Below are positions 16,337 through 60,813 of a DNA stretch of 64,000 nucleotides, in pieces. Source of the DNA: Halorubrum lacusprofundi ATCC 49239 (GTDB lineage: Archaea > Halobacteriota > Halobacteria > Halobacteriales > Haloferacaceae); assembly GCF_000022205.1 (NCBI RefSeq), contig NC_012029.1:2666001-2730000 (forward strand). Direction: 5' to 3'. Numbering within the stretch: the stretch's first letter is position 1; each line of letters begins with the position of its first letter. The position numbers and the translations under genes were made by a program. The notes beneath the pieces are model-generated. The model was not told the origin of the DNA. It searched no databases and saw nothing but the letters and a program-made list of their open reading frames with translations.

Positions 16337-16384
16337 ATGACACACGCCCGAAGAGTTACAACCGTCCGAGGTGATCCGCCGTGA
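16337..16384 (+). CDS. short leader ORF overlapping the start of the APC-USP gene
   Basis: A 15-codon ORF ([15 protein letters not shown]). Its ATG falls where a TATA box at 16307-16314 places the transcription start, so it could be translated from a leaderless mRNA. Its TGA overlaps the GTG of the transporter in the form GTGA, and it contains the sequence GAGGTGAT (16368-16375), which lies 5 nt before that GTG and matches the 16S anti-Shine-Dalgarno. This fits translational coupling or regulation of the transporter by the leader. It may simply be an untranslated leader. No amino acid bias typical of attenuators is seen. Confidence 0.4.
16368..16375 (+). promoter_or_regulatory. strong Shine-Dalgarno sequence deciding the GTG start of the APC-USP gene
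   Basis: GAGGTGAT, 5 nt before the GTG at 16381. In this mostly leaderless genome such a strong site supports an internal, leadered start for the transporter. Confidence 0.6.
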
Positions 16385-18741
16385 GCGGCGACGGGGAGCT
16401 CGCGAAGGACCTCGGGCCGCTCGCGGCGCTCACGATCGGGATCGGAACGATGATCGGTGCCGGGATCTTCGTTCTCCCCGGCACCGCGGTCGCCCGCGCC
16501 GGGCCGCTCGCGGCGCTCACGTTCGTCCTCGGTGGCGTGATCGCGCTGTTCACCGCGCTGTCGGCCTCGGAACTGGGGACCGCCATGCCGAAATCGGGCG
16601 GGGCGTACTTCTACGTCAACCGTGCGCTCGGGCCCATGTTCGGCTCCGTCGCGGGCTGGGCGAACTGGCTCGGGCTCGCGTTCGCCTCTGCCTTTTATAT
16701 GTACGGCTTCGGCGAGTACGTCAACGCGCTCGTCGGCCTCGATCCGGTTGGTCTCGGACCGGTGACGCTGGAAGCGGCGCAGGTGATCGGGCTCGCCGGT
16801 GCGCTGCTTTTCATCGCGGTCAACTACTTCGGCGCGAAGGAGACGGGAGGGATCCAGATCGTCATCGTGATGTCGCTTCTGGGGATCCTGGCGGTCTTCA
16901 CCGTCGTCGGCCTGCTGAACGCCGACATGGAGTCGCTGCGGCCGATCGCGCCGCCGGGGACGACGAGTCAGGTGCTTCCGGTGACAGGGATCATCTTCGT
17001 CTCGTATCTCGGGTTCGTGCAGATCACCTCGGTCGCCGAGGAGATCAAGGACCCCGGGCGGAACCTTCCGCTCGCAGTCCTCGGCTCGGTCGTCATCGTC
17101 ACGGTCGTGTACGCGCTGTTCCTCGTCGTGCTGCTCGCGGCGGTCCCGACTGAACTCGTCGCGAACAACGAGACCGCGGTCGTCGACGCCGCCCGACTGC
17201 TGTTCGGCAACTACTCCGTGTTCGGCTATTCGCTGGGCGCCGTCGGCGCCGGCATGCTCCTGATCGGCGGGCTGCTCGCGACCGCCTCCTCGGCGAACGC
17301 GTCGATCCTCTCGTCGTCGCGGATCAACTTCGCGATGGGTCGCGAGAAAATCGTCACCCCGAAACTCAACCAGATCCACGACCGGTTCGGCACCCCCTAC
17401 AAGTCGATCGCGCTCACCGGCGCGCTCATCCTCGTGTTCCTCGTCGCCGGCGGCGTCGAGTCGCTGTCGACGATGGGCTCCGTCCTCCACCTCATCGTCT
17501 ACGGGCTGCTCAACATCGCGCTCATCGTGATGCGCGAGTCGGAGGTCGAGGGGTACGACCCCGACTTCGAGGTCCCCTTCTACCCGATCGTGCCGATAAT
17601 TGGAACGCTGTCGTCGTTCGCACTGATCGTCTACATCGAACCGCGGATCATCGCGCTGTCGGCCGGACTCGTCGCCTTCGCCGTGCTCTGGTACCTGCTG
17701 TACGCTCGCGGAAAGGTGGAGTCGCGCGGTGTGTTGGGCGCATGGATCCTCGACCGGTCCGACGACCTCCCGAAGGCCGCCGTGTCGGCCGCCACCTCGG
17801 TCCAACCGAGCGGTGACGACTACCGCGTGATGGTGCCGCTAGCGAACCCCGCGACCGAAGAGCACCTGATCACGCTGGCGTCGGCCATCGCCAAGCAGCG
17901 GAACGGGACGGTCGTCGCGGTCAACATCGCGAACGTGCCCGACCAGACCTCGCTGGAGGCGGCCCGCGACCGCGGCGCCCACGAGGCGGCACACGACCTG
18001 CTCGACAAGGCCCGCGACGACGCCGAGACGTTCGGCGTTGACGTGGAGACCCACGTCGTCCTCTCACACCGCGTGTTCGAAGAGGTGTTCGACGCCGCGC
18101 GCACCTACGGCGCCGACCTCACGGTGATGGGCTGGGGCGAGGACTCCCACGGGGCGCCGGGGCGCGCCGAGTCCGCCGTCGACGAGCTGGCGCACTCGCT
18201 CCCCTCCGACTTCCTCGTGTTCCGCGACCGCGGGTTCGACGCCTCGCGGATCCTCGTGCCGACCGCCGGCGGTCCGGCCTCGGACCTGTCCGGCGCAGTC
18301 GCCCGAATGTTACAGGCCGAGTTCGGCGGCGAGGTCACCTTGCTTCACGTCGCCGACGACGAGGCCGAAGGGCGGGCGTTCCTCTCCGAGTGGGCCGACC
18401 AGCACGGCCTCTCGGACGCGACCCTGCGGATCGAGAGCGGCGACGTCGAGGCGTCCATCGAGCGCGCGGCGCGCGACGCCACGATGCTCATCGTCGGCGC
18501 GACGGAGAAAGGGCTGCTCTCGCGGCTGGTCAGCGGGTCGCTCGTGTTGGACGTGCTCAACGAGGTGGAGTGTTCCGTGCTGCTCGCGGAGAAGCGCGGC
18601 GACCGCGGTATCGTCGGCCGGCTGTTCGGCAGCGGGACGCGGTCGAACGACATCGTCGAGACCGACGAGACGCCCGCCGACACCGGCGTCACGCCGGAGC
18701 CGTCGACGCCGGAGATCGACGACAGCGACGCGGAGAAGTGA
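16381..18741 (+). CDS. APC-family transporter fused to two universal stress protein domains
   Basis: 786 residues. Residues 1-470 form a 12-helix APC permease with the first-helix motif [20 protein letters not shown]. Two cytoplasmic universal stress protein domains follow, about 479-595 ([11 protein letters not shown] start) and 619-740 ([11 protein letters not shown] start, [15 protein letters not shown] nucleotide-binding-type loop). The rest is an acidic tail. Such fusions in haloarchaea are thought to let nucleotide-binding stress domains gate amino acid uptake (inference). The GTG start has a GAGGTGAT ribosome site 5 nt upstream and overlaps the stop of a 15-codon leader ORF. A permease without the stress domains is encoded at 11.1-12.5 kb. 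Confidence 0.88.
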
Positions 18742-18788
18742 GGCGCAAGTCGGCGGTTACACGTGCGGATTTAGCTGGCGGGAATTGT

Positions 18789-19147
18789 TTATAAGTGAAA
18801 GCGGAGGCTACGTGGTCTATTTATAAGGGAATGTGCGGTGGCGCGCCCCGGTAAGCGGCCCGAAGGGCCGCGAACCGACGGTGCGAGGGAGTCGGTCGCC
18901 CGAGCAACGCGGAGGGCGACCGACGAGGCTGGGGAGGTGTGAGGCTGTGGTTGCGGTGCGGGCGGGGTGGGACTGAAAGGGGGCAGTCGCCGGCGGCTTT
19001 GCCGCCGGCTGCAAGCGAGAGCTTCGCTCTCGCCCTGCCACGAGGACGAAGCACACCGACGTAAGCACCGCAGCAAGCCGCGCGAGTCGTCGCGGCTGGG
19101 GCTTTGGAGGTGTTCACCGTCGATCTACCGGCAATCACTTATAAGTG
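18789..19147 (+). repeat. structured intergenic repeat, copy A (sense strand +)
   Basis: First of five related non-coding elements in the window. It starts with TTATAAGTGAA, has a second TTATAA at 18821-18826, and ends in the 12-bp palindrome CACTTATAAGTG (19136-19147). Possible stems: closing CGGTG 18836-18840 with CACCG 19115-19119; hairpin 1 GCGGCCC/GGGCCGC (18855-18861, 18865-18871); hairpin 2 GTCGGTCGCCC/GGGCGACCGAC (18891-18901, 18914-18924); hairpin 3 CCGGCGGC/GCCGCCGG (18990-18997, 19001-19008); hairpin 4 GCGAGAGC/GCTCTCGC (19015-19022, 19026-19033). Invariant blocks: GAGGCTGGGGAGG 18925-18937 and GGCTGGGGCTTTGGAGG 19094-19110. It has no protein gene. It is a mobile repeat, an RNA gene, or both. 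Confidence 0.75.
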
Positions 19148-19203
19148 AACACCGGCGTATCCACGGCGACACGCATTAGCGCGCTGAGCCGCAACCGATA
19201 CGT

Positions 19204-19461
19204 ATGGCCACGGAGTCCTGTGACGTCTGCGAGCGGTCCGTCAGGATCGCCGGCGGAATCGGCGACCTGTGGAACTTCGCGTTCGAGTCGACGCAGGGAC
19301 TGACGCTGGAGCTGACCGACGGCTCCGAGTTCTTCCTCTGTTTCGAGTGTATGGAGTCGCTGCCGGACGACCACGAGCCGACCGCCGACGACGTCGCCGA
19401 CTTACGGGCGCGAACCGAGCCGGTTGAAGGCGGTCGCGACCACTTCTGGCACTGGAAGTAA
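19204..19461 (+). CDS. small zinc-ribbon protein
   Basis: 85 residues. It has CDVC near the N-terminus (residues 6-9) and CFEC in the middle (about residues 49-52), giving a four-cysteine zinc-binding pair. The rest is acidic, with a histidine/tryptophan-rich end (GGRDHFWHWK). It is probably a cytoplasmic single-domain zinc-ribbon protein; the haloarchaea encode many such small proteins and no function is assigned. The gene is flanked on both sides by repeat copies A and B in opposite orientation, which makes it the centre of a composite-like structure. Confidence 0.75.
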   Translation: MATESCDVCERSVRIAGGIGDLWNFAFESTQGLTLELTDGSEFFLCFECMESLPDDHEPTADDVADLRARTEPVEGGRDHFWHWK

Positions 19462-19496
19462 AACGGCTGGATCAGCGTGTTTCAGCGGTCGGTCGT

Positions 19497-19846
19497 TTAT
19501 AAGTCGTTGACGATGGATCGACGGTGAACACTTCCAAAGCCCCAGCCGCGAGGACTCGCGTGACTCGCTGCGGTCCTCGGTCGGTCGCTAGCGCTCTCTC
19601 CCTATGGTCCTTGCGTCGTCATGCGTCGTCCTCGCGGCAGGGCGAGAGCGAAGCTCTCGCTTGCAGCCGGCGGCAAAGCCGCCGGCGACTGCCCCCTTTG
19701 AGTCCCGCCCGCACAGCACCGCAGCCTCACGCCTCCCCAGCCTCGTCGGTCGTCCTCCGCGTTGCTCCGGACGACCGACTCCCTCGCGGGCTCCTCGCGG
19801 GCCGATGGCCCGCTCGGAGGCACGCCACCACTTCGTTCACTTATAA
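19497..19846 (-). repeat. structured intergenic repeat, copy B (sense strand -)
   Basis: Same family as copy A, inverted. Its 5' TTATAA (19841-19846) lies 10 nt past the thiQ stop codon, and its 3' TTATAA is at 19497-19502. Hairpin 2 pairs GTCGGTCGTCC with GGACGACCGAC (plus-strand arms 19769-19779 and 19745-19755), so it differs from copy A at one position in each arm with pairing kept. The GAGGCTGGGGAGG and CTGGGGCTTTGG blocks are present. A 74-nt segment (19626-19699) is the reverse complement of 18976-19049 in copy A with one mismatch. Confidence 0.75.
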
Positions 19847-19856
19847 AGCGCCGCAC

Positions 19857-20981
19857 TCACTCCTCGCCAATCCCGATCATGTGCGCGTCTGCCGGATCGA
19901 AGCCGACGACGACCTCGCCAGAAAGGGGATCGCGCGTCCGGACCACGAGGTCGCGACCGCCCCAGTCGAGGGTTATCCGGGTCGTCTCGCCGAGGAACTC
20001 CGCGCTCTCGACGGTCGCCCGGATTCGGCTCTCCCCGTCGCCGATTCGCAGGTACTCGGGGCGGACGCAGAAGGTGAGGCGGTCGCCGGGCGCGACATCA
20101 ATCACGTCATCCACCTCGACCCGGAGGATCTCACCGCCCACGTCGACGCCGGCGGTTCGGGGAGCGCTGTCGTCCACGTCTCCCCCCTCGACATCGACCA
20201 CCCGCCCCACGAACACGTTGTTGTCGCCGACGAACTCCGCGACGAACCGGCTCGACGGCTCCCGGTACACCGTCCGCGGGGGCGCGATCTGCTCCGGCGT
20301 CCCGTCGCGCATCACCGCGACGCGGTCGGAGATCGCCAGCGCCTCCTCCTGATCGTGGGTGACGTAGACGGTGGTGATCCCGAGCTCCGACTGGATGCGC
20401 CGGACCTGCACCCGGAGGCGTTCGCGGAGCTGCGCGTCGAGCGCGCTCATCGGCTCGTCGAGGAGGAGGAGATCGGGACCCGGCGCGAGCGCGCGGGCCA
20501 TCGCGACGCGCTGCTGCTGTCCGCCTGAGAGGCTCTCCGGATCGCGGTCGGCGGCGTCGGGCAGGTCCACCAGTTCGAGCAGCTCCGCGACGCGCTCCGA
20601 GCGACTCATTCCCTCTGGCGGGTCGGCGAAGTTGAGCCCGTAGCCGACGTTCTCGCCGACGGTCATGTGCGGGAACAGCGCGTAGTTCTGGAAGACGACG
20701 CCCACGTCCCGGTCCTCCGGAGGCACCCCCGCGACTGACTCGCCCGAAAAGCGGATCGTCCCCGCGGTCGGCTCCTCGAACCCCGCGATCAGCCGGAGCG
20801 TCGTCGTCTTCCCGCAGCCGGAGGGGCCGACGAGCGTGAAGAACTCCCCTTCGCGCACGCTGAGGCTCACGTCGTCGACGGCGGCGGTGTCGCCGTAGCG
20901 CTTGGTCACGCCGTCGAGTTCGACGGCGGGGGGGCCATTGGGTGAGTCGGCGGCGGCTTGGAGAGCCGGATCAGAGCCCAC
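19857..20981 (-). CDS. thiQ: thiamine-type ABC transporter ATP-binding protein
   Basis: About 374 residues from a GTG at 20981. Walker [10 protein letters not shown] is near residue 51, the Q loop lies in [16 protein letters not shown], the signature is LSGGQQQR, Walker B is [12 protein letters not shown], and the switch histidine is in [10 protein letters not shown]. The C-terminal 120 residues form a TOBE-type regulatory domain, as in the CysA/PotA/FbpC/ThiQ group. It powers the fused permease encoded upstream; the start overlaps the permease stop by 11 nt. The thiamine assignment rests on the TbpA-like binding protein in the same operon; iron or spermidine import is the alternative. Repeat copy B begins 10 nt past its stop codon. 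Confidence 0.85.
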
Positions 20982-22842
20982 GCGTCTCACCCCCGAGACG
21001 CTCGATAACGACGAAGCTGAGCCCGGTGACGACCAGCAGGACGACGCCCATTGCGGTCGCCGGTCCGAGCCGGCGCCCGATGAAGCGTTCGATGGCGACC
21101 GGCATCGTGTAGGCGTCGGCGCCGGTGGCAAGCACCACCGTCGCCGTGAACTCGCCGATCGAGATGGCGAACGCGAACGCCGCGCCGGCGACGACGCCCG
21201 GCCACACGAGGGGGAGCTCCACGTCCCGGAGCACCCGCGCCCGCGAGGCACCGAGCGCCCGCGCCGACTCGATCAGCGAGCGGTCGAGCCCCTCCAGCCC
21301 GGGCGCGACGGTCCGGACCACGAACGGGTAGCCGGCGATCGCGTGCGCGACGACGATGGCTACCGCGCCGGTCGCCGCGAACCGCCACCCCGCGATCTCC
21401 ACGCCGAAGACGAGCCCGCGGAGGAGCCCGAGTCCGACGATGATCCCGGACACCGCAAGCGGCGCCATCGCGACCGCGTCGACCAGCTTCCGCCCGCGGA
21501 ACCGCCGGGTCGTCAGCACCGCGACGACGACGCCCATCGGAAGCGCAAGCAGGGTCGCGGCGCTCGCGAACGTCAGCGAGTTGCGGATCGCGGGCCACGG
21601 CCGCACCTGAAACGCCGCCCCCGTCTGCTGGCGGTCGATGAGGAACCGGTAGTGGTCGAGCGTGAGCGCGCCGTCACCGCCCGTGACGCTCGCGAGCACC
21701 ATCGAGGCAATGGGCGCGACGAAGACGAGCCCCGCGACGACGGCGTAGGCGGCGAGGCCGATCCGGGGAAGCACCTCTCGGAGGGTGGGGGCGGCTGGGA
21801 CGAGAGACCTGCGCGGGAGGGGTCGGACCCCGCGAGAGCTGACCGTGTTTCGCGCCTCGTACCGCAGGTACGCGAGCAGCACCCCCAGCGAGATGACGAG
21901 CTCGACGATCGCCAGCGCGGCCGCCTCGGCGTAGTTCAGGTCGCGAACAAGCCGGTAGACGAACACCTCGACCGTCGCTAGCTCGAACCCCCCGAGCGCG
22001 AGGACGATGGGGAAGGTGCCGAACGTGAACACGAAGGTGAGCGCCGCGCCCGTCAGCACGGCGGGATACACCTGCGGCGCGACCACGTCGAAAAACGCCC
22101 GGGTCGGCCCCGCGCCGAGGCTCCGAGCGGTCTCGACCGCACTCGCGTCGACCGACTCCCACGCCGCGGTCGTCACCCGGGCGACGAGCGGCGCGTTGTA
22201 GAACGCGTGGGCGATCACGATCGCTTCCAGCGTGAACATGAGGTCGACGGGCGGGAGCCCGAGCGCGCCGAGAACCCCGTTGAGGGTCCCGTTCCGGCCG
22301 AACGTGGCGACGAAGCCGACGGCGACCATGATCGACGGGAGCACGAACGGGACGATCGTCAGCGATCGCAGGGTGCGTCGCCCCGGGAACTCGAAGCGCG
22401 CGAGGAGGTAGGCGGCCGGGAGCCCCAAGGCGACGCTGGCGATCGTCGACAGCGCGGCCTGATACGCGGTGAACCCGACGATCCCGAGCCGCCGGTCCGG
22501 ACCGAGCAGATCGCGCGCGACCGCGATCGGCGACTCGCCCGCGAACAGCCGGGCGAACTCACCGAAGTAGAACGGGTCACGGAGCAGCTCGACGAATATG
22601 GCGAGCGTGGGGACGCCGTCGACGACGACCGCCTCGATCAGGACCGTCCCGACCGGGTAGTAGAACGCGGCGACGAGCACGACGCTCGTGACGACCGCGA
22701 GCGCGGTCAGCAGGCGCCCACGGAGGCGCCGGGTGATCTGCTCGCGAAGAGTGCGACGGCTGCCGTCGGCACCGCGGCTAGCGTCTGACACGCCGCCGTC
22801 AGTTCCCGGCGTACTGTCGCTCCCAGTCTTCGACCCACTCAC
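20971..22842 (-). CDS. thiP: thiamine-type ABC transporter permease, two fused membrane domains
   Basis: 623 residues with about 12 membrane helices in two homologous halves, typical of ThiP/FbpB permeases that work as a single chain. Each half has an EAA-type coupling loop for the ATPase: ARSLGAGPTRAFFDVVAPQV in the first and ARALGASRARVLRDVELPLV in the second. The N-terminal 40 residues are polar and probably cytoplasmic. The ATG at 22842 overlaps the end of the binding-protein gene by 44 nt; a GTG at 22791, seven bases past that stop, is a reasonable alternative start. Confidence 0.85.
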   Translation of the reverse strand: MSGSKTGSDSTPGTDGGVSDASRGADGSRRTLREQITRRLRGRLLTALAVVTSVVLVAAFYYPVGTVLIEAVVVDGVPTLAIFVELLRDPFYFGEFARLFAGESPIAVARDLLGPDRRLGIVGFTAYQAALSTIASVALGLPAAYLLARFEFPGRRTLRSLTIVPFVLPSIMVAVGFVATFGRNGTLNGVLGALGLPPVDLMFTLEAIVIAHAFYNAPLVARVTTAAWESVDASAVETARSLGAGPTRAFFDVVAPQVYPAVLTGAALTFVFTFGTFPIVLALGGFELATVEVFVYRLVRDLNYAEAAALAIVELVISLGVLLAYLRYEARNTVSSRGVRPLPRRSLVPAAPTLREVLPRIGLAAYAVVAGLVFVAPIASMVLASVTGGDGALTLDHYRFLIDRQQTGAAFQVRPWPAIRNSLTFASAATLLALPMGVVVAVLTTRRFRGRKLVDAVAMAPLAVSGIIVGLGLLRGLVFGVEIAGWRFAATGAVAIVVAHAIAGYPFVVRTVAPGLEGLDRSLIESARALGASRARVLRDVELPLVWPGVVAGAAFAFAISIGEFTATVVLATGADAYTMPVAIERFIGRRLGPATAMGVVLLVVTGLSFVVIERLGGETRGL

Positions 22843-24094
22843 TGACCGAGCCTTGGAGCTCGTCGTACGTGAACGTCACCGGTTCGGACGGCTCCTGCGC
22901 CAGTTCGGCGTAGTCGTCGGGGAGCTCGGCCGTGTCGGTCGCGGGGAACGCGACGTTGCGCTCGGCGATAACCCCCTGCACGTCCGGCTCCAGCATGAAC
23001 GACATGAACTCGCGGGCGAGCTCCGGCTCGTCTGCGTCGGCGAAGACGGCCATCCCCTCCGGGTTGGCGTACGCCTGATCGTTCAGGAACCGAATTTGGT
23101 GTTTCTCCAAGTCTGCCCCCTCCATGCTCGCGAACACCTGATCGGTCGAGTAGGAGACGACCATCGGGGCCTCCCCCCCGCTCCAGGCGGCGTAGGCGTC
23201 GTCCCACGAGCCGAGCACACGCACGTCGTTGTCCTGTAGCTCCGCCCAGTAGTCGAGGTAGTCGTAGTCGGGGTCGCCGTCGCCGCCCTCCACCGACCCG
23301 TCCGGCCCGTCGCCGAACCGGTGGACCGTGTGGAGCAGGAACGACCGCCCCGTCGTCGAGGCGCCGGGATTCTGCGCGATGAGCGCGCCTGCGTGCTCGT
23401 CATCCAGCAGGCCCTCGAACGTCTCCGGCGCCTCGATCGCGGTGCCGTCGTACACGAGGCTCACGTAGCCGGTGTCGAAGGGAACCGCGCGGTCGAACGG
23501 GTCGAACAACAGCCCCTCCCGCACGTCGTCGAATCCCTCGACCTCGCCGCGCTCGACGAACAGGTCGTCGTCGAGCGTCTCGTCGACGCGCACCAAGTCT
23601 TCGGTGGTGAGCCCGACGTAGAGGTCGGCGTCGATCGACACCCCCGAACTGGCCCGCTCGACGTAGTAGTTCACCTCGTTGTCCGGGGTCGCCCACTCCA
23701 GTTCGGCGTCGACGCGCGACTCGAACGCCTCCTTGAGCCACTCACCGGGACTCACCGACGGCGCGTCGATGAAGCTACTGTAGGTCGCGACCGTCAGGGT
23801 AGGGGTCTCCTCGTCGTCGCCGTCGCCATCGTCACCGTCGCTGGACCCCGGCCCGTCGGCGCTGTCATCACCGGCGGTCCCGTTTTCTCCGTCTCCGTCC
23901 TCACCGTCCGTCGGCTCGGCACTACACCCCGCGAGCGCGACGGCGCCCGCCGCGCCGCCGAGCGCGAGGAACCGCCGGCGGGTGGGGACCCCGGTACGTC
24001 GATCGGTGCGTCTGCCGGCGCCGCCGCCAGAGTCCGCCTGCCGGTCGTCGGGGGCGTCACGCCGGTCCGTCTCGGTCGCGTCGTCGTTAGTCAT
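22799..24094 (-). CDS. tbpA: thiamine ABC transporter substrate-binding lipoprotein, Tat-exported
   Basis: 431 residues. A Tat signal (RRR at 39-41, then FLALGGAAGAVALAGC) ends in a lipobox with Cys57, and an acidic linker of about 45 residues follows. The mature domain carries phrases typical of TbpA: YSSFIDAPSVSPGEWLKEAF, PFDTGYVSLVYD, QNPGASTTGRSFLLH and VLGSWDDAYAAWSGGEAPMV, then SYSTDQV. It should capture thiamine or a derivative outside the cell and pass it to ThiP. It is the first gene of the operon. The start is the ATG next to a TATA-like CTTTTTGTAA and an inverted repeat; the open frame extends further upstream without support. Confidence 0.87.
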   Translation of the reverse strand: MTNDDATETDRRDAPDDRQADSGGGAGRRTDRRTGVPTRRRFLALGGAAGAVALAGCSAEPTDGEDGDGENGTAGDDSADGPGSSDGDDGDGDDEETPTLTVATYSSFIDAPSVSPGEWLKEAFESRVDAELEWATPDNEVNYYVERASSGVSIDADLYVGLTTEDLVRVDETLDDDLFVERGEVEGFDDVREGLLFDPFDRAVPFDTGYVSLVYDGTAIEAPETFEGLLDDEHAGALIAQNPGASTTGRSFLLHTVHRFGDGPDGSVEGGDGDPDYDYLDYWAELQDNDVRVLGSWDDAYAAWSGGEAPMVVSYSTDQVFASMEGADLEKHQIRFLNDQAYANPEGMAVFADADEPELAREFMSFMLEPDVQGVIAERNVAFPATDTAELPDDYAELAQEPSEPVTFTYDELQGSVSEWVEDWERQYAGN

Positions 24095-24095
24095 T

Positions 24096-24115
24096 ACCGG
24101 GTTGTTACACCCGGT
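24096..24115. promoter_or_regulatory. candidate operator of the thiamine transporter operon
   Basis: ACCGGGT (24096-24102) and ACCCGGT (24109-24115) form a perfect 7-bp inverted repeat with a 6-bp spacer. It begins two bases upstream of the tbpA ATG and reaches the TATA-like CTTTTTGTAA on the minus strand (about 24111-24120). This position would block initiation when bound. No TPP riboswitch consensus is visible here. Confidence 0.45.
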
Positions 24116-24266
24116 GGTTACAAAAAGGATCCGCGTCGCCGACAGCGGGCGACCGCGAGAGGACTGGCGAAGCGAAAACGAAGACTCAACGCGCGAACGA
24201 AACGGCGGTATCACCCTCGATAGCGCCGCCGACACAGATTTACCACGTCTCGGTCTTCGGACCCCT

Positions 24267-25115
24267 ATGAGCGAGGAACCGAGAGAAGGAAGGGGAAGAG
24301 CAGCGACGACGAGCGGACTGACCAGCGTCACGCGGCGTCGCCTGCTCGCGGGGGGTGCGGCCGTCGCCGTCGCGGGACTAGCAGGTTGTCTGGGCACCCG
24401 AGACGGACCGGTGCCGGAGCCGAGGGTGACCAGCGACCGGATCGACGACGGCTGGCGGCTCCTCGACGAGTCGGAGAGCACGGTGTTCGAGCAGTCGTAC
24501 GGGCCAGTGACGGTGACTGCGCTCGAACACACCCGGATCTACGAGTACGTCTCGGTCGCCGAGGCGCTGTCAGAGGCGTTCGGTGCGAGCGGGTCGCCGG
24601 TCGTCTTCTTCGCCACTCGGATCGACATCCGGCCGGCGATCGACAGCCTCCCGGCCGGGATCGGCCGGGACCGGCTGATGACGGAGGTGGAGTCGGCCGC
24701 GGTCGAGGCGTTCCGGTCGCAGCTGAACGCGAGCGGGATCGAGAACGTCGAGATCGTCGATCAGGGGACGAGCACGGTGGAGACCGGCCACACCGCGACG
24801 ACGTGGCGGCTGACGGGCGAGTTCGCCTTCGAGGGCGAGATCCCGACTGCGGGCGGGTCGACGGCGGATCTCGGCGAGACCGTCGATATCGAAGCGCGGC
24901 TGGGCGTCTGGCACGACGGCACCGACGTGTTGGTCGCCGGCGGCGCGCACCCGGCGGAGCCGCTCATCGAGACGATTGACGAGGCCCTTCCGAACCTGAT
25001 CGACGCGGAGACCGCGATTGGCGCAGTCGCGGACGCGGAGGCCGCCGACGCGCTTGCGACCGAATCCGATACCTTCGACGAGGAGATCTCGGCGCTGCTC
25101 ATCTCGGTGGAGTGA
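24267..25115 (+). CDS. Tat-exported lipoprotein, DUF6517-like
   Basis: 282 residues. A Tat signal with RRR at 23-25 runs through LLAGGAAVAVAGLAGC to the lipid-attachment Cys41. The mature part is one acidic domain of about 240 residues resembling the haloarchaeal DUF6517 family, with phrases WRLLDESESTVFEQSYGPVT and GHTATTWRLTGEFAF. Function is unknown; it is anchored outside the membrane. The start is the ATG 25-30 nt after GATTTACC, not the far-upstream open frame. It is divergent from tbpA with 172 bases between, so the two may share control, but no functional link is established. Confidence 0.75.
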   Translation: MSEEPREGRGRAATTSGLTSVTRRRLLAGGAAVAVAGLAGCLGTRDGPVPEPRVTSDRIDDGWRLLDESESTVFEQSYGPVTVTALEHTRIYEYVSVAEALSEAFGASGSPVVFFATRIDIRPAIDSLPAGIGRDRLMTEVESAAVEAFRSQLNASGIENVEIVDQGTSTVETGHTATTWRLTGEFAFEGEIPTAGGSTADLGETVDIEARLGVWHDGTDVLVAGGAHPAEPLIETIDEALPNLIDAETAIGAVADAEAADALATESDTFDEEISALLISVE

Positions 25116-25192
25116 GCGCGGTCGCAGTTTGAGAGGGTTCCAATACCGCCCGAACCGACCGGTTTAATCGGCGGCCGCGACTGTACCGCAGT

Positions 25193-25933
25193 ATGAGCCA
25201 CTTCCCTTCCTTCGAGGTGATCCCCGCCGTCGACGTGCAGGACGGCGAGGTCGTCCAGCTGGTCGGCGGCGAGCGCGGCACTGGCAAGCGGTACGGCGAC
25301 CCGGTGGAGGCCGCCGAACGCTGGATCGAGGCGGGCGCCGAGACGCTCCACCTCGTCGACCTCGACGGCGCGTTCGAGGGCGAGCGCGTCAACGCCGACG
25401 CGATCGAGGCGGTCGTCGAGAACGTCCCGGACGAGATCGGCCTCCAGCTCGGCGGCGGCATCCGGACCGCCGAGGGCGCGCGAGAGCTCCTCGATCTGGG
25501 GCTGGACCGCGTCATCCTCGGGACCGCGGCGGTCGAGACGCCCGAGATCGTCGCCGAGATCGACGAGACGCACCCCGGCAGCGTCGTCGTCAGCCTCGAC
25601 GCGAAAGACGGCGAGGTCGTCGTGAGCGGGTGGACCGAGGGGACCGGCCTCGACCCGGCGGAGGCGGCCGCACGCTACGAGGAGCTGGGCGCGGGCGCGA
25701 TCCTCTTTACGAACGTCGACGTGGAGGGGCAGCTGGAAGGGATCGACCGCGAGGCGGTGGAGAGCGTCGTCGACGCAGTGGAGATCCCCGTGATCGCCTC
25801 CGGGGGCGTGGCGGCGATCGACGACGTGGTCGCACTGAAGGAGGCTGGCTCGGCTGCGGTCGTCGTGGGGACCGCGCTGTACGAAGGCGAGTTCACGCTG
25901 CGAGAGGCGCAGACAGCCGCGGACGGGAAGTGA
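25193..25933 (+). CDS. hisA: phosphoribosylformimino-AICAR phosphate isomerase
   Basis: 246 residues, a (beta/alpha)8 barrel of usual length. The first strand IPAVDVQDGEVVQL has the catalytic aspartate (D14); the second catalytic aspartate is in VVSLDAKDGEVVVSGW. The two phosphate-binding loops are LGGGIR and ASGGVA. It performs the fourth step of histidine synthesis, isomerising ProFAR to PRFAR. A TTTAATC box lies about 28 nt upstream. hisB follows 1.5 kb downstream on the same strand with an old yellow enzyme gene between them. Confidence 0.95.
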   Translation: MSHFPSFEVIPAVDVQDGEVVQLVGGERGTGKRYGDPVEAAERWIEAGAETLHLVDLDGAFEGERVNADAIEAVVENVPDEIGLQLGGGIRTAEGARELLDLGLDRVILGTAAVETPEIVAEIDETHPGSVVVSLDAKDGEVVVSGWTEGTGLDPAEAAARYEELGAGAILFTNVDVEGQLEGIDREAVESVVDAVEIPVIASGGVAAIDDVVALKEAGSAAVVVGTALYEGEFTLREAQTAADGK

Positions 25934-26073
25934 CTGCGGGGCACTCGGGACCGTAGACGGGAAGCGACCGAAGGCGACGGTCGGAGCCGTGGACCGTGGT
26001 ACCACACATGTTGTGCGACCGGACGCACACATCCGCCGGCAGCTTATGTTTCCGACGGCGGTACGTGAACGCG

Positions 26074-27180
26074 ATGACTGACGATCCTCTCTTCGACGAG
26101 TTCGAACTGAGCGGCCACGTTCTCGACAACCGCGTCGGTCTCGCACCGATGACGCGGACGAGCGCGACCGACGCGGGACACGCGACCGACCGAATGGCCC
26201 GATACTACGCCTCCTTCGCTCGCGGCGGGTTCTCGTTTCTCGTCACCGAGGGCGTCCACCCGGACGCCACCCACAGCCAGGGCTACCTCAATCAGCCCGG
26301 CCTCGCGACCGACGAGCAGGCGGCGGCCTGGGAGCGAGTCGTCGACGCCGTCCACGAGGAGGGCAGCCCGATCTTCGCGCAGTTGATGCACGCCGGGGCA
26401 CAGGCACAGGGCAATCGATACGGGTACGATCCCGTCGCGCCTTCGCCGTACCGCCCGCCGGGAGAGATGGCGGAGCTGTACGGCGGGTCCGGAGCGTTCC
26501 CCGAGGCGGACCCACTCGACGACGAGGGGCTCGACGAAGCGAGAGAGGGATTCGTCGCCGCCGCGGAGCGCGCGGTCGAGGCCGGTTTCGACGGGATCGA
26601 GGTCCACGCGGCCAACGGCTACCTCCTCCACGAGTTCGTCGACCCGCTGGTCAATGACCGCGACGACGAGTACGGGGGCTCGCCGGCTAACCGGGCGCGC
26701 TTCCCCGCCGAGGTGACCGCCGCCATCGACGACGCCACGCCCGACGACTTCGTCGTCGGAGTCCGCGCCTCGCAGGCGGCCGTCACCGACGAGGAGCGGG
26801 TCTGGCCCGACGGCGAGGCGACCGCCGCCGCGCTGTTCGACGCGCTCTCAAACGCCGGCGCCGACTACGTTCACGTCACCGGCGGCGACGCGACCGCCGC
26901 GGAGGTGCCGGACACCGATCGCACGCTCGCGGACCTCGCGGTCGAGCACGTCGACGACGACGTCGCCGTGATCGCCAACGGAAGACTCGGAGACCCGGAG
27001 CGCGCGCGGGCGGCGCTGGCAGACGGATCCGACCTGATCACTCTCGGAACCGGCGCGCTCGCGAACCACGACTGGCCCGATCGGGTCCGAGCGGGCGAGG
27101 CGCTCGACGATCTGGACCCAAGCGTCGTCTTCGAGCCCGACGCCTCGCTTAGCGACGCCGAGGTCCCCGGCGACGACTGA
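26074..27180 (+). CDS. NADH:flavin oxidoreductase, old yellow enzyme family
   Basis: 368 residues. The barrel starts with LSGHVLDNRVGLAPMTRTSATD, the FMN-binding opening of the family. It has QLMHAGAQAQGN, an active-site HAANGYLLHEFVDPLVNDRDDEYGG segment of the type that binds substrate and FMN, and the late phosphate-binding part VIANGRLGDPERARAAL. Such enzymes reduce activated C=C bonds of enones or nitro-olefins with NAD(P)H. The physiological substrate is unknown. The start is taken at 26074, about 27 nt after CTTATG; the longer frame from 25996 is not supported. It lies between hisA and hisB but has no known role in histidine synthesis. Confidence 0.85.
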   Translation: MTDDPLFDEFELSGHVLDNRVGLAPMTRTSATDAGHATDRMARYYASFARGGFSFLVTEGVHPDATHSQGYLNQPGLATDEQAAAWERVVDAVHEEGSPIFAQLMHAGAQAQGNRYGYDPVAPSPYRPPGEMAELYGGSGAFPEADPLDDEGLDEAREGFVAAAERAVEAGFDGIEVHAANGYLLHEFVDPLVNDRDDEYGGSPANRARFPAEVTAAIDDATPDDFVVGVRASQAAVTDEERVWPDGEATAAALFDALSNAGADYVHVTGGDATAAEVPDTDRTLADLAVEHVDDDVAVIANGRLGDPERARAALADGSDLITLGTGALANHDWPDRVRAGEALDDLDPSVVFEPDASLSDAEVPGDD

Positions 27181-39073: not shown

Positions 39074-39192
39074 GGTGCGCGGTCCGCGGGCGCGACGTAT
39101 CAACGTATCGGCTTTCGATGGGGGTGGCGCTGACCGGCCTTCCGAGACCGCGTCGCCGCGGAGTTGAAGGGACCCGCCGACCGAGTGCCTCT

Positions 39193-40488
39193 ATGGACGA
39201 CCGGATCCCGGTAACCGTACTCTCGGGAAGCCTCGGCGCGGGCAAGACGACCTTGTTGAACCACCTCCTGCGAAACGCCGGCGACCGCGACATCGCGGTG
39301 CTGGTCAACGATATGGGCGACGTGAACGTCGACGCCGAGCTGATCGCCGAAGAGTCCGAGGTCGACGTCGAGGGCGTCACGGAGCTGTCGAACGGCTGTA
39401 TCTGCTGTGAGCTACAGGACGACCTCGAAAGCGCGGTGGTACGGCTCGCGAACGAGCGCTCTTTCGACGCCTTGGTCGTTGAGTCCTCGGGGATCTCCGA
39501 GCCCGCGCCGGTCGCGCGGCTGTTCACGACCGAATCGCGCGCGGCGGCCCGATACCGCGTCGACGCGTTGGTGACCGTTATCGACACGCGGCAGTTCCTC
39601 GACGCCTTCGCGGGCGAAGGAACGCCGGAGCGGCGCGTCAACCCGGACGCTGACGGCGGGGACGGAGATGCCGACGGCGACACGACCGGCGGCGCGGCCG
39701 ACGGCGCCAGCGACGGCGACCGTCCGCTCTCGGACCTCCTCGTCGAGCAGATCGAGGTGTCCAACCTCGTGGTGTGCAACAAGGCCGACCTCTGTACCGA
39801 CGCGGAGATCGACGAGGCGGTCGACCTCGTGGGCGCACTGCAGCCCGACGCGGAGACGGTCGTCACGGAGTTCTCCGCGGTCGATCCCGATCGGATCCTC
39901 GGCGTCGGCCTGTTCGAGGAGCGCGAAATCGGCGACCTGCCGGGGTGGAAGCGAGCGCTGGCCGAGGACACCGCGGACGATAGCGGCCACGACAACCACG
40001 ATCACCACGCCGACCACGACCACCGCCACCCCGACGAGATGTACGGCGTCACCTCCTTCACCTATCGCCGCCGGCGACCGTTTCACCCGAACCGGTTCGC
40101 CGCTCTCCTCCGCGACCTCCCGGACGATGTCGTCCGCTCGAAGGGGACGCTGTGGGTCGCCGGAACCGACCAGCGCCAGCAGGTCGGACAGGCGGGTCGG
40201 TCGGTCCGCGTCGAGGCGCTCGGCCCGTGGATCGCGAGCCTCCCGGCCGTCGAGCGCGACATGCTGCGCTCGAACCGGCCCGATCTGGCGTGGGACGACG
40301 AGCACGGCGACCGCCGGACCGAGTTCGTCGTCATCGGCACGGGCGTCGATGAGACCGCGCTCGTCGACCGACTCGACGACGCGCTCGTCACCGAAGCGGA
40401 GTGGAAGGCGTTCCGCGCCGACGAACCGACGACCGACCACCCGTTCCCGACCGAACAGGGCGAGTCGATCGCGCTCCGCGAGCCCTAA
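39193..40488 (+). CDS. CobW/COG0523-type metal-binding GTPase
   Basis: 431 residues. Walker A is SGSLGAGKTTLLNHLL (about residues 10-25), the conserved metal-binding CxCC is in NGCICCELQDDL, and the switch region is VVESSGISEPAPV. NKAD (VVCNKADLC) gives guanine specificity. A histidine-rich segment (about residues 265-285, HDNHDHHADHDHRHPDE) sits between the GTPase and the C-terminal CobW_C domain and should bind zinc or another metal. The family delivers metals to enzymes. The start is the ATG at 39193. An acidic insertion near residue 155-175 (DADGGDGDADGDTTGGAADG) is unusual. Confidence 0.88.
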   Translation: MDDRIPVTVLSGSLGAGKTTLLNHLLRNAGDRDIAVLVNDMGDVNVDAELIAEESEVDVEGVTELSNGCICCELQDDLESAVVRLANERSFDALVVESSGISEPAPVARLFTTESRAAARYRVDALVTVIDTRQFLDAFAGEGTPERRVNPDADGGDGDADGDTTGGAADGASDGDRPLSDLLVEQIEVSNLVVCNKADLCTDAEIDEAVDLVGALQPDAETVVTEFSAVDPDRILGVGLFEEREIGDLPGWKRALAEDTADDSGHDNHDHHADHDHRHPDEMYGVTSFTYRRRRPFHPNRFAALLRDLPDDVVRSKGTLWVAGTDQRQQVGQAGRSVRVEALGPWIASLPAVERDMLRSNRPDLAWDDEHGDRRTEFVVIGTGVDETALVDRLDDALVTEAEWKAFRADEPTTDHPFPTEQGESIALREP

Positions 40489-40552
40489 TCCGATCGTGAT
40501 GGTCCGGACGCGGTAGCGAAGAGCTAAGTGGGACTCTCCCGGGCGGTGACGT

Positions 40553-40789
40553 ATGGGCGAGGACCAGAAGGGAACGAGCGAGGATCCGAAGGGGATCCGC
40601 GAGGGCGTCGAAGGATCGAAAGGCGACCTGCGGGTGGTGTTGCTCCTGAACGCGGTGCTTTCGGGGATGTTCGCGTGGACCGCCTTCTGGGGGTTACAAC
40701 TGCTCGACGTCGCCGAGGTCACCGCGACCAACGTCGCGTCCCTCGCGCTGATCGTCTTCGCGCTGACGTACGTCACCGTGTTGCGGTGA
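40553..40789 (+). CDS. small two-helix membrane protein
   Basis: 78 residues. A charged, lysine/glutamate-rich N-terminus (residues 1-25) is followed by two hydrophobic segments (about 27-49 and 56-77) with no tail. It is probably a small membrane protein with the N-terminus inside. Third-position GC bias supports coding. No family is recognised. Confidence 0.6.
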
Positions 40790-40877
40790 CTGTAGCGACG
40801 GGAGACGCCTCTCTCGCGATCCGACGAATTGGCGAGTTTCGCCATCTTTTAACCCGAACGCGGCGCTTTTTCCGACA

Positions 40878-41555
40878 ATGACGATCGAAGACCGCGACGA
40901 CGCGCACCTCATCACGCACGCGCTGGCGAAGGACACCCTCTCGCGGCTCCGCGACGTCGAGACCGAGCAGGTCGCGTTCCGGAAGGGGCTCGTGAAGCTC
41001 GGCCGCATCTGCGGCTACGAGATCATCGACGGTGCGATGGAGACAGAGTACGTCCCCGTCCAGACGCCGCTCCAAGAGACGACCGGTGAGCGCGTGAAGG
41101 GACTCGACGACGTGGTCATCATCAACGTGCTCCGGGCCGCGACGCCGTTCGTCGAGGGGCTGTTGAAGGCGTTCCCCCGCGCGAAGCAGGGCGTCATCTC
41201 CGCCGGCCGCGACGAGGAGGCCGGGATGACCGACGACGGTGAGTTTCCGATCACGATCGACTACGTGAAACTGCCCGAGATCCGGCCCGAGGACACCGTG
41301 ATCGTCGCGGACCCGATGCTTGCCACCGGCTCGACGATGTGCGCCGTGCTCGACCACGTCCTCGACGAGGCCGACGCCTTCGAGGACCTGTTCGTCCTCT
41401 CGGCGGTCTCCGCGCCCGAGGGGCTCGTCCGGGTGAGCGAATCGGTCCCCGAGGCCGACCTACTCACGGTCGCCATCGACGACCGCCTCGACGACGACGG
41501 GTTCATCCTCCCCGGACTCGGCGACGCCGGCGACCGCGCGTTCCGGACGGTTTGA
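40878..41555 (+). CDS. upp: uracil phosphoribosyltransferase
   Basis: 225 residues. The PRPP-binding motif is [19 protein letters not shown] and the uracil-binding C-terminal [11 protein letters not shown] is preserved. It converts uracil and PRPP to UMP in pyrimidine salvage. The ATG lies about 26 nt after CTTTTAACC, so the mRNA is probably leaderless. Neighbouring genes are unrelated. Confidence 0.95.
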
Positions 41556-41627
41556 GGTCGCGGCGGCGGCAGCGACTAGCCGCTCCCGCCGACGTACTTT
41601 TAAGAGTCGCCCGCGCGACCGATCGGT

Positions 41628-41846
41628 ATGAGCGACGCGCCGACGACCGAGCCCTGCGACGACTGCGGCGACCCCACCACGGACGCGCTCGCACGCACCG
41701 TCCGGCTGAGCGTCGACCGCGCGAACATCGACACCCAGCGGCTCTGTCCCGACTGCTTTGCCGACTGGATCCAGCGCTATCAGGATCGGCTCGGCTCCGG
41801 CCCCGACGACGACGACAGCGGCAGCTCCGAGATCATCGTCGACTGA
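41628..41846 (+). CDS. small CxxC zinc-finger protein
   Basis: 72 residues with CDDC (residues 10-13) and CPDC (about residues 43-46), giving a four-cysteine zinc site. An acidic, aspartate/serine-rich tail follows. A TTTTAAG box lies about 28 nt upstream of the ATG. It is one of many small zinc-binding proteins in haloarchaea and has no known function. Confidence 0.75.
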   Translation: MSDAPTTEPCDDCGDPTTDALARTVRLSVDRANIDTQRLCPDCFADWIQRYQDRLGSGPDDDDSGSSEIIVD

Positions 41847-41936
41847 GCGGTCGGGAGCCGTCCACGCTTCTCATCGACACGGCAACGTCCGTCCCGACCG
41901 CCCGTCTTAAGCCGCGGCGGCACGGACGACGACGTA

Positions 41937-49293: not shown

Positions 49294-49474
49294 TTATAAA
49301 TCGTTGATGGCGCGAAGGATACCTGCGAAATGCCAGCCGATCACTTATAAACGGATGGCTGCTGATCGCTGGCCAACACTGCCAAAGCCCCAGCCTCGTC
49401 GGCCGCCCTCCGCGTTGCTCCGGGCGACCGACTCCCTCACACCGGGGCGCGCCGACCGCGTCATTCACTTATAA
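49294..49474 (-). repeat. structured intergenic repeat, copy C (sense strand -), internally deleted
   Basis: TTATAA motifs lie at 49469-49474 (5' end), 49345-49350 and 49294-49299. The first overlaps the uvrC stop codon. Hairpin 2 uses plus-strand arms 49422-49432 and 49398-49408; in the sense strand it pairs GTCGGTCGCCC with GGGCGGCCGAC, with one G-U wobble. The region between the two GGCTGGGG copies of the full element is missing, so GAGGCTGGGG runs directly into GGGGCTTTGG. Hairpin 1 and most of the middle are reduced. The 3' module supplies the likely TATA box of thpR. Confidence 0.7.
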
Positions 49475-51247
49475 GCGTTCGCGGAGCGTGTCGGCGGTCG
49501 CGTCGCCGACGCCGTCGACGTCGGTGAGGTCGTCGAGGGAGGCATCGCGCACGCTCTCGACCGATCCGAACCGGCGCAGGAGCCGGCGGCGGGTCTGGGG
49601 GCCGACGCCGGGCACGTCGTCGAGGACCGTCTTGACCTCGTCGCGGACGGTCTGGTGGTAAGAGACGGCGAAGCGGTGCGCCTCGTCGCGAACGCGCTGG
49701 AGCAGGTGCAGTTCGGGGGCGTCGTCCGGCCACCGGCGGGTGCCGGTCGGGGTCACGACCAGTTCCTCGGCCTTCGCGAGCGCGACAACGGGAACGTCCC
49801 AGCCGGTCTCCGCGAGCGCGTCGCGAGCGGCCCCGAGCTGCCCCCCGCCCCCGTCGATCAGGAGAAGGTCGGGGTCGGGGCGGTCGTCCTCGCCGGCGAC
49901 CGCGCGCTCGGCGCGCCACCGGACCAACTCGCGCATGTTCGCGTAGTCGTCGTTGCGGTCGGTGAGCTTCTTCCGGCGGTAGTCGCTCGTCTCCGCGCTT
50001 CCGTCGACGAAGCACACGTCGGAGCCGACCACCGCGGTCCCCTGCGCGTGGCTCACGTCGAACCCCTCGATCCGGGCCGGGCGGTCGATTCCGAGTCGCT
50101 CGCCGAGCGCGCCGACGGGGTCCTCACGGCCGCCGCGCTTGCGGGCGTTTTTGAGGGCGAGTTCGACGAGCTTCGCCTCCCGCCCCGCACCGGGGACGCG
50201 GACCGAGACCCCCTCCGCCTCCAGCCAGTCGATCACGTCGGGGTCCGACGGGCGCTCTGCGAGGAGGATCGCGTCCGGGAACTCCCGCTCGGCGTAGTAC
50301 TGCGTGAGGAACGCTGACAGCACCGCGGCGGGCGTGTTGGCGTCGGGGTCGGCGAAGCCATCTTCATCTCCCTCGCCGTCGTCTCCCACCGCCGCCGCGT
50401 CCAGCCGGTGCCGACTGCGGTCGACCAACTGGCCGCGCTCGCTGTGAAGCCGGGCCACGCGAGCGGTGTCGCCCTCGACGGCGGCCGCGAGCACGTCGAC
50501 GGTGCGGTCGTCGGAGTGGTCGCTCACGGCCTCGCCGCCCTCACCGTGGAACGCCTCGACCGCTTCGAGCCGGTCCCGGAGGTTCGCGGCGCGCTCGAAC
50601 TCCGCGTTCTCGGCGGCGGCCTCCATCCGCCGACGCAGGGGGTCAGCGAGGACGCCCGTCTCGCCCTCGAAGAACCGGCGGGCGGCCGCAACGTCCTCGG
50701 CGTAGCTCTCGGGGTCGATCTCGCCGGTACAGGGGGCCGAGCAGATCCCCATCTCGTAGTCGAGACAGGGACGGTCCCGGTTCGCGTACTTGTGGTCGGA
50801 GCAGCCGCGAAGCCGGTACTCGTCGCGGATCGCTTTCACCACCGTCTCCACGCGACCCTTGCTCGTGAACGGGCCGTACGCGACCGCGCCCTCCTCGGGG
50901 TCGCGGGTCACCTCGATCCGCGGGACGGGGTGGTCCGTGATCGCAACCAGCGGGTACGACTTGTCGTCTTTCAGCCGGACGTTGTACCGCGGCCGGAGCC
51001 GCTTTATCAGGTTCGCCTCCAACAGGAGCGCCTGCGTCTCGGTGTCGGTGACCGCGAACTCGATCCGGTCGGCGCGCCCGACCATCCCCCGTATCCGCCC
51101 CGAGCGCGGGTCGGCGTACGACCGCACCCGATTCCGGAGGTTGACCGCCTTGCCGACGTACAGCGTCGTCTCCCCGGCCCGGAACTGGTACACACCGGGT
51201 TCAGTCGGGAGGTCTGCGGCCCGCTCGCGCACGGCGTCGGCGTCCAT
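49469..51247 (-). CDS. uvrC: excinuclease ABC subunit C
   Basis: 592 residues. The GIY-YIG nuclease domain is at the N-terminus ([20 protein letters not shown]), followed by a cysteine-containing middle ([30 protein letters not shown]), a UVR segment near residue 200, the C-terminal nuclease domain with [17 protein letters not shown] and a final helix-hairpin-helix pair ([29 protein letters not shown]). It cuts both sides of DNA lesions with UvrAB. Haloarchaeal uvr genes came from bacteria. The last codons CTTATAA coincide with the 5' end of repeat copy C. Confidence 0.95.
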
Positions 51248-54566: not shown

Positions 54567-54627
54567 GCGCACTAGCGGAAGGGCCATCGACGACCTCGAT
54601 CGAGAGTAACTGTTCACGGAACGGGAT

Positions 54628-54889
54628 TTATAACTGAACGGTGCGGTCGGCGCGTGCCGACGAGTGGCCGACAGGCCACGAGTCGCACGCGCGAGGGAGT
54701 CGGACCGGCGCGGCTGCGCCGGTCCGACGAGGCTGGGGAGGCGTGAGGCTGCGGTTGCGGTGCGGTCGGGTGGGCCTCGCTGGCTGGGGCTTTGGAGGCC
54801 TTCACCGTCGATTCGCGATCAGTCATTTATAAGCAAGCAGCTGGCACTCCGCCCGTATCTACCGACGATCCGCCACCAACCAGTTATAA
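54628..54889 (+). repeat. structured intergenic repeat, copy D (sense strand +)
   Basis: Begins with TTATAA (54628-54633). Closing stem ACGGTG 54638-54643 with CACCGT 54803-54808. Hairpin 1 GTGGCC/GGCCAC (54664-54669, 54674-54679). Hairpin 2 is a perfect 13-bp stem GTCGGACCGGCGC/GCGCCGGTCCGAC (54699-54711, 54716-54728), whose distal part differs from copies A-C. GAGGCTGGGGAGG 54729-54741 and GGCTGGGGCTTTGGAGG 54782-54798 follow, with a shorter middle than copy A. TTATAA repeats at 54827-54832 and 54884-54889; the last one overlaps the stop codon of the converging 2H phosphoesterase gene. Confidence 0.75.
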
Positions 54890-60393: not shown

Positions 60394-60453
60394 CGTGATC
60401 GGCTGTGCGAACGGCTCGCACACTTAAAAAGGATCGCCGGATGTGAGGAGTGC

Positions 60454-60813
60454 TTGTAAACGTGGTGCGGTGGCGCGTACCGAGGAGCGCCCGAAGGGCG
60501 CGACTCGCACGCGCGAGGGAGTCGGAGCGGCGCTTATGAGCGCCGCTCCGACGAGGCTGGGGAGGCGTGAGGTGCTGTGCGGGGCGGGACTCAAAGGGGG
60601 CAGTCGGCGAGGCGGGCGCAGGGGACGTAAGGACCGCAGGGAGCGAACAAAATGAGCGACTGAGGACCGCAACGAGCGTGCGTCCGCCTCGCCGACTGGG
60701 GCTTTGGAGGTCGCGGTCGTCGCCACCGATCCGGTAGCAACCACATATAAACGATCGACGAGAGAGCCGAACGCGTTCACCGCCGATCCGCGGACACCAA
60801 CGATCGCTTATAA
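60454..60813 (+). repeat. structured intergenic repeat, copy E (sense strand +)
   Basis: Begins with TTGTAA (60454-60459), a variant of the TTATAA end. Closing stem CGGTGGCG 60468-60475 with CGCCACCG 60721-60728 (8 bp). Hairpin 1 GCGCCC/GGGCGC (60487-60492, 60496-60501). Hairpin 2 is a 14-bp stem GTCGGAGCGGCGCT/AGCGCCGCTCCGAC (60521-60534, 60539-60552). GAGGCTGGGGAGG 60553-60565, GACTCAAAGGGGGCAGTC 60588-60605. A perfect 15-bp long-range pair, CAGTCGGCGAGGCGG 60601-60615 with CCGCCTCGCCGACTG 60684-60698, replaces the local hairpins of copies A and B. It then has CTGGGGCTTTGGAGG and a duplicated 3' module ending in TTATAA (60808-60813), 14 nt from a stop codon. Confidence 0.75.

Follow-up and report, generated by a model that had tools for sequence, protein, structure and literature searches.

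A core gene bracketed by an inverted pair of dispersed palindromic repeats occurs in both orientations among Halorubrum species

When two long inverted repeats enclose one small gene, are they the ends of a unit that carries the gene, or sites at which the segment between them can be turned round? This question is raised by a locus of Halorubrum lacusprofundi ATCC 49239, whose genome comprises 3,692,576 bases on three contigs. The locus lies in a window, that is, the whole stretch of DNA that was analysed, of 64,000 nucleotides (C2:2666001-2730000). There, two copies of a repeat, A and B, face each other across a gene of the DUF7561 family. In a preliminary description of the sequence, it was proposed that the arms of the pair could allow inversion, or that the pair could behave as a composite unit. 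The locus is probably best explained by an inversion of the segment, with homologous recombination acting on two oppositely oriented copies of a REP/MITE-like family.

The locus and its gene

The boundaries of the repeat copies were taken from a profile built on 26 copies of the repeat. The features of the window that are relevant here are the following:

16378..18741, + strand: left neighbour, called APC, an amino acid permease with Usp domains (Pfam)
18816..19151, + strand: repeat copy A (profile match of 223 bits; alignment of 26 copies)
18976..19049, + strand: arm 1, 74 nt (one mismatch against arm 2)
18986..19039, + strand: 54-nt nested double hairpin in A (genome search, at most 3 mismatches)
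19167..19178, + strand: TATA-like box cgacacgcatta between copy A and the gene, some 30 nt before the ATG
19204..19461, + strand: DUF7561 gene, 85 aa, two CxxC pairs (Pfam PF24442, E 3.4e-32)
19489..19848, - strand: repeat copy B, inverted (profile match of 255 bits)
19626..19699, - strand: arm 2, 74 nt (one mismatch against arm 1)
19636..19689, - strand: 54-nt nested double hairpin in B (genome search, at most 3 mismatches)
19857..20963, - strand: right neighbour, called ABC, an ABC transporter ATPase with a TOBE domain (Pfam)
49336..49477, - strand: remnant repeat copy, full-length at the corresponding place in genome G036
54625..54841, + strand: shortened further repeat copy (profile match)
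60451..60758, + strand: further full repeat copy (profile match)

Two statements of the preliminary description hold. The 74-nt arms are reverse complements that differ at one of 74 positions, and the pair encloses one gene only, the sole prediction of a composition-based gene caller between A and B being that at 19204-19461 (85 codons). Copy A has a TTTATAA box near its 5′ end and CTTATAA at its 3′ end, which is directed towards the DUF7561 gene. The 3′ end of copy B is also directed towards this gene, and B begins 9 nt past the stop codon of the ABC gene. A and B each come after a stop codon on the same strand. An alignment of about 360 positions gives 76% identity between the two copies. 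Without gaps, the arms extend to 18946-19069 and 19606-19729 (124 nt, 88%), with more blocks outside, and a 49-nt piece of them occurs twice in the window, against 0.00 times expected from 100 shuffles. Nevertheless, the near-identity of A and B alone is no proof of recent exchange, since much of it is due to the 54-nt double hairpin, which a search allowing up to 3 mismatches located six times in the genome; at three of these sites (A, B, and C2:1357286), the match is perfect.

The DUF7561 gene is a core gene of the genus, with one match in each of 52 Halorubrum genomes (one genome per species, that of H. lacusprofundi included). The four cysteines of its protein are invariant across 12 aligned homologues, and the CxxC pattern suggests a zinc ribbon. 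NCBIfam gave no match for the protein, solved structures gave only three weak matches to polyubiquitin (best E 0.029), which were taken as chance, and no paper naming DUF7561 was found. In the matched part of one distant homologue (L114:4638-4847), the translation contains one stop codon. Upstream of the gene, 39 of 42 related loci have a TATA-like motif of the GCATTA or CGCCTTA type that starts 30-33 nt before the ATG, as counted with a loose pattern chosen post hoc from the sequences, and the remaining three have a similar stretch at this position. The box is probably a promoter element and, as it is located between the repeat and the gene, it turns with the gene.

The repeat family

A and B are members of a dispersed, palindromic, intergenic, and non-coding repeat family of Halorubrum main chromosomes, most copies of which are about 300-400 nt long. 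A search of the H. lacusprofundi genome with the A-B stretch gave at least 164 matches (40 of 204 candidates were scored). The conserved core pattern, with up to 2 mismatches, has 69 hits, all of them on C2, against none for the control; there were no hits on C1 and C3, the two smaller contigs, which amount to about 26% of the genome. With up to 1 mismatch, the core is present in all 52 genomes of the genus, each of which has between 8 and 194 hits. Among 292 sampled genomes of the class, 52 have the core, of which 35 belong to the genus and 17 do not. Most of these 17 have 9 hits or fewer; the highest counts outside the genus (94 in G225 and 43 in G196) suggest a patchy spread of the core. 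No paper naming the family was found in a narrow search of the open-licence literature.

Some features are common to the copies. Both ends have a TTATAA box nearby, the two sides of the hairpins covary, and a GGCTGGGGCTTTGG block close to the 3′ end is conserved. In some copies, a 3′ unit of 54-57 nt is repeated in tandem, and some copies other than A and B have longer, related inserts at the position of the 54-nt double hairpin. Tandem arrays of the 3′ unit, spaced 54 or 57 nt apart, are found at C2:466232-466464 and C2:581806-581936. The gene context was obtained with the composition-based gene caller for 60 elements from H. lacusprofundi and from stretches of its relatives, where the own copies came from the 40 candidates scored and elements scoring below 60 were left out. 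The flanking genes are convergent for 26 of these elements, tandem for 27, and divergent for 5, and 2 are unclear. Those between tandem genes have no strand bias, 12 being on the strand of the genes and 15 on the opposite one. A role of the repeats as 3′ UTRs or promoter donors was rejected on these counts and because the DUF7561 gene has its own upstream box.

The repeats might instead encode a structured non-coding RNA, in which case inversion would be a side effect. This is consistent with the TATA-like boxes near both ends and with the fact that 19 of 50 predicted pairs have changed on both sides, although the register of the alignment is doubtful in places. However, in 33 copies from H. 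lacusprofundi (30 shuffles each), the mean z-score of the fold is -4.2 on one strand and -4.4 on the other, and the advantage of the sense strand (-25.8 kcal/mol) is that of the shuffles (-26.5). The better fold of the G-rich strand in 49 of 49 copies was likewise discarded as a sign of an RNA, as dinucleotide shuffles give an equal difference (33 copies). Rfam returned two matches for 18700-19900, both under the gathering score, and the lack of strand bias between tandem genes is not what an RNA gene would lead one to expect. Thus, a strong fold on both strands, which is not strand-specific after control for composition, favours DNA palindromes over an RNA gene, and we consider the latter unlikely.

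Orientation and breakpoints in relatives

The orientation of the DUF7561 gene was scored relative to the ABC or APC neighbour in 47 loci and the window, which yielded 34 assignable rows. Fourteen loci had no usable neighbour (L075, L093, L096-L100, L102, L108, and L111-L115), one of which, L102, has an inward pair, and three (L077, L086, and L095) were oriented from the APC gene alone. The orientation of the window is found in 4 of the 34 rows, that is, the window itself, H. salipaludis (L069), H. yunnanense (L074), and sp. CSM-61 (L076). In the other 30, the gene has the opposite orientation between the same neighbours. An inward-facing pair of repeats lies close to the gene in all four window-like rows but in only two of the 30 opposite ones (L072 and SD626R, L103), which gives a Fisher P of 0.0003, uncorrected for kinship. 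Two loci were counted here as having no pair: L094, whose second inverted repeat is at a distance of about 0.7 kb past the gene, and L106, which has a single repeat at that place.

A tree of the 34 rows, made from the ABC, permease, APC, and DUF7561 DNA, requires at least two changes of orientation. For instance, the sisters H. yunnanense and SD626R (support 99/95) differ, the gene being flipped, as in the window, in the former and unflipped in the latter. Twelve of the 31 inner branches have a support below 80, including those around the window. Overall, the comparison of sequences supports the view that the gene has been inverted over evolutionary time, in different species. As possible arguments against its proposals, the preliminary description had named a gene present without the repeats in relatives and an orientation that is fixed. 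The first was observed, as in several relatives (e.g., L083, L084, and L092) the gene adjoins the same ABC gene and no repeat was found in between; the second was not.

The boundaries of the flips lie within the repeats, which supports, at the level of species, the earlier suggestion that the arms could allow inversion. When G023 and G015 are aligned to the window, the DUF7561 gene alone is reversed, with boundaries inside A and B. However, in these two genomes themselves, the repeat is present on the ABC side only, and thus the pair was presumably lost or never present there. In G023, the APC gene is separated from the reversed DUF7561 gene by about 3.9 kb that do not align to the window (joined coordinates 39159-43076). 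In G026, a longer block, 19092-25925 of the window, is reversed, and both ends of this block of about 7 kb are within repeats, at 39134-39538 (a copy of mixed orientation) and 46437-46803 in joined coordinates. At the far junction of the block, G036 and G015 have a repeat, and the window has an Oxidored_FMN gene (26062-27180) instead.

The repeats themselves are mosaic, as observed when those of six unflipped species were compared with those of three flipped ones, in counts of agreements that share species and are not independent. Over 18781-18989, the ABC-side repeat of the unflipped species, which is upstream of the gene, corresponds to the ABC-side repeat of the flipped species (394 versus 243 agreements), and the result has the same direction in each of the six. 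The next section, 18990-19093, is undecided (121 versus 134 informative agreements). In the tail (19094-19149, restricted to the repeat proper), the same repeat agrees with the gene-side repeat of the flipped species (116 versus 73). Past the tail, the leader that belongs to the gene follows it, as is to be expected. This pattern of similarity puts the probable exchange inside the repeats, in a zone that takes in the 74-nt arms. However, the mirror-image mosaic was not seen in the APC-side repeat of SD626R, the only one available from an unflipped species (5′ part: 34 versus 47). In one section of the tail, H. kocurii has a reversed trend (25 versus 33). In H. lacusprofundi, A and B are mutual closest relatives among the copies compared, as would result if one had exchanged with or converted the other. 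In none of five other paired species, however, is the partner the closest relative; it ranks 58 (SD626R), 56 (H. yunnanense), 4 (Boch-26), 20 (H. salipaludis), and 29 (CSM-61) of 69.

A and B are inverted with respect to each other and face inwards. In the proposed mechanism, the sequence common to these two copies of the family would allow exchange by ordinary homologous recombination, and the segment between them, consisting of the core DUF7561 gene and its own promoter-like box, would be turned round. The agent of the flip would most plausibly be the homologous recombination of the host. Since the promoter-like box is inside the segment, a flip reverses the gene and probably leaves its expression unchanged.

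Both orientations might also have arisen by horizontal exchange of the locus or by separate insertion of the gene, rather than by inversion in place. Haloarchaea exchange DNA often, 12 of the 31 inner branches of the tree have low support, as described above, and what look like repeated flips could be due to replacement of the locus by horizontal transfer. By contrast, the single gene copy per genome, the same outer neighbours, and the mosaic repeats all argue against this origin, which seems to us quite improbable. Another alternative is a phase-variation switch, in which frequent inversion within a population would switch the DUF7561 gene, or one beside it, between an on and an off state. 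The 74 nt of near-identity between inverted arms and the differing orientations of sister species would be expected of such a switch. However, the putative promoter lies inside the segment beside the gene, and inversion does not separate them. Besides, Pfam families were assigned to 8 of the 10 neighbouring proteins (two had no Pfam match), and no recombinase or transposase was recognised among the ten. In addition, 28 of the 34 assignable rows have no close pair. Consequently, with a TATA-like box that flips with the gene and no recombinase recognised nearby, a switch is very unlikely. Finally, a composite mobile unit, in which A and B would be transposon ends carrying the zinc-ribbon gene, as the preliminary description had also proposed, is suggested by a single gene flanked by two inverted copies of a dispersed repeat but is hardly credible, given one gene match in each of 52 genomes, the same ABC neighbour with and without repeats, and no transposase recognised adjoining.

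Other bracketed genes, rearrangements, and known systems

The DUF7561 gene is not the only one bracketed by an inward pair. Two further genes, for a ferredoxin-like protein and for msrA, were compared in 30 loci each, out of 51 and 52 genomes with a match, respectively (the names ferredoxin, hemB, valS, msrA, ribH, and SRP54 were read from translations alone). The ferredoxin-like gene (C2:14187-15015; L137-L166) has an inward pair in 22 of 30 loci, and no flip was found in the 26 loci where the left neighbour was identified, the gene being opposite to this neighbour in all of them. The msrA gene (C2:824505-825583; L167-L196) is bracketed by an inward pair in H. lacusprofundi. Relative to its right neighbour, it is on the same strand in 15 of 30 loci and on the opposite one in 10, with 5 not assignable. 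Twelve of the same-strand loci have a pair, and one (L184, in G037) is without any repeat. The flipped state of msrA in G037, with no repeat near, and the constant orientation of the ferredoxin-like gene both count against the proposed mechanism. Two of the opposite-strand loci have a pair (L195 and L196) and eight have no repeat. A gene for an SRP54-type GTPase (L009; C2:513898-516208) is also bracketed by an inward pair.

Junctions of rearrangements were compared between 429 kb of the H. lacusprofundi chromosome and 372 kb of G026, leaving out chains below 2 kb and junctions above 3.1 kb (1 of 12 on the G026 side and 3 of 12 on the own side). On the G026 side, a repeat is found in 5 of 11 short junctions (P of 0.046 when weighted by intergenic length and 0.0006 by count), and the other 6 have none. 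On the own side, 2 of 9 short junctions have a repeat (P of 0.41 by length and 0.10 by count). These counts indicate that the repeats are at some rearrangements but not at most of them, and the repeats were consequently rejected as a general cause of rearrangement.

Nevertheless, part of the local rearrangement between Halorubrum chromosomes may be due to this family, which is a concrete candidate defined by its sequence. Perhaps, although we find this rather doubtful as a general statement, undescribed palindromic repeats that occur throughout the genus, on the main chromosome and not on secondary replicons, are recombination sites that repeatedly flip single genes or short blocks and are the source of many local inversions; close direct pairs would be deleted, leaving inward pairs around single genes. 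The DUF7561 locus is small, and inversion could be measured there by PCR. Between Halorubrum ezzemoulense Fb21 and H. lacusprofundi, numerous local recombination events that are not symmetric about the origin have been described (PMC6430316). These rearrangements are local, like those observed here, but the part of that report drawn on names no repeat family as their cause (PMC6430316).

Among described systems, the PATEs and SMRs of Haloquadratum walsbyi come closest; these repeats are non-coding, palindromic, and present in high copy, with SMR-A nested in PATEs (PMC3119063). Like these, the Halorubrum repeat is non-coding, palindromic, and of high copy number, with small repeats nested in larger palindromes. 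PATEs are related to the ends of IS605 (PMC3119063), and a parent transposon of the Halorubrum repeat was sought among IS605 types. Of 36 IS605-type loci of H. lacusprofundi (27 TnpB-type and 9 Y1 transposase matches, partly from the same transposons), only three have a strong repeat match (L269, L253, and L250) and one a weak match (L255), in each case as a scattered neighbour. The distribution also differs, as the 69 core hits are on one contig, whereas TnpB-type genes are on all three, with 14 of the 27 matches on the two smaller ones. Thus, with few IS605-type loci having a repeat match and with a different distribution among contigs, membership in the PATEs is unsupported.

Two other groups have some of these features. 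The REP and BIME sequences of bacteria are intergenic palindromic repeats of high copy number (PMC2817692), and MITEs are short, dispersed, and devoid of a transposase (PMC10969869). The Halorubrum repeat resembles the former in being extragenic, palindromic, and abundant, as its core hits indicate, and the latter in being short, dispersed, and without a transposase. A palindrome is found near its 5′ end, with none clear at the 3′ end, and the element-free junctions beside the ABC gene are too diverged to define the ends of the repeat. Of the terminal inverted repeats and target duplications that characterise MITEs, nothing clear was seen apart from the TTATAA box near both ends. The REP or BIME unit is about 20-40 nt long, whereas most copies of the Halorubrum repeat have a length of about 300-400 nt.
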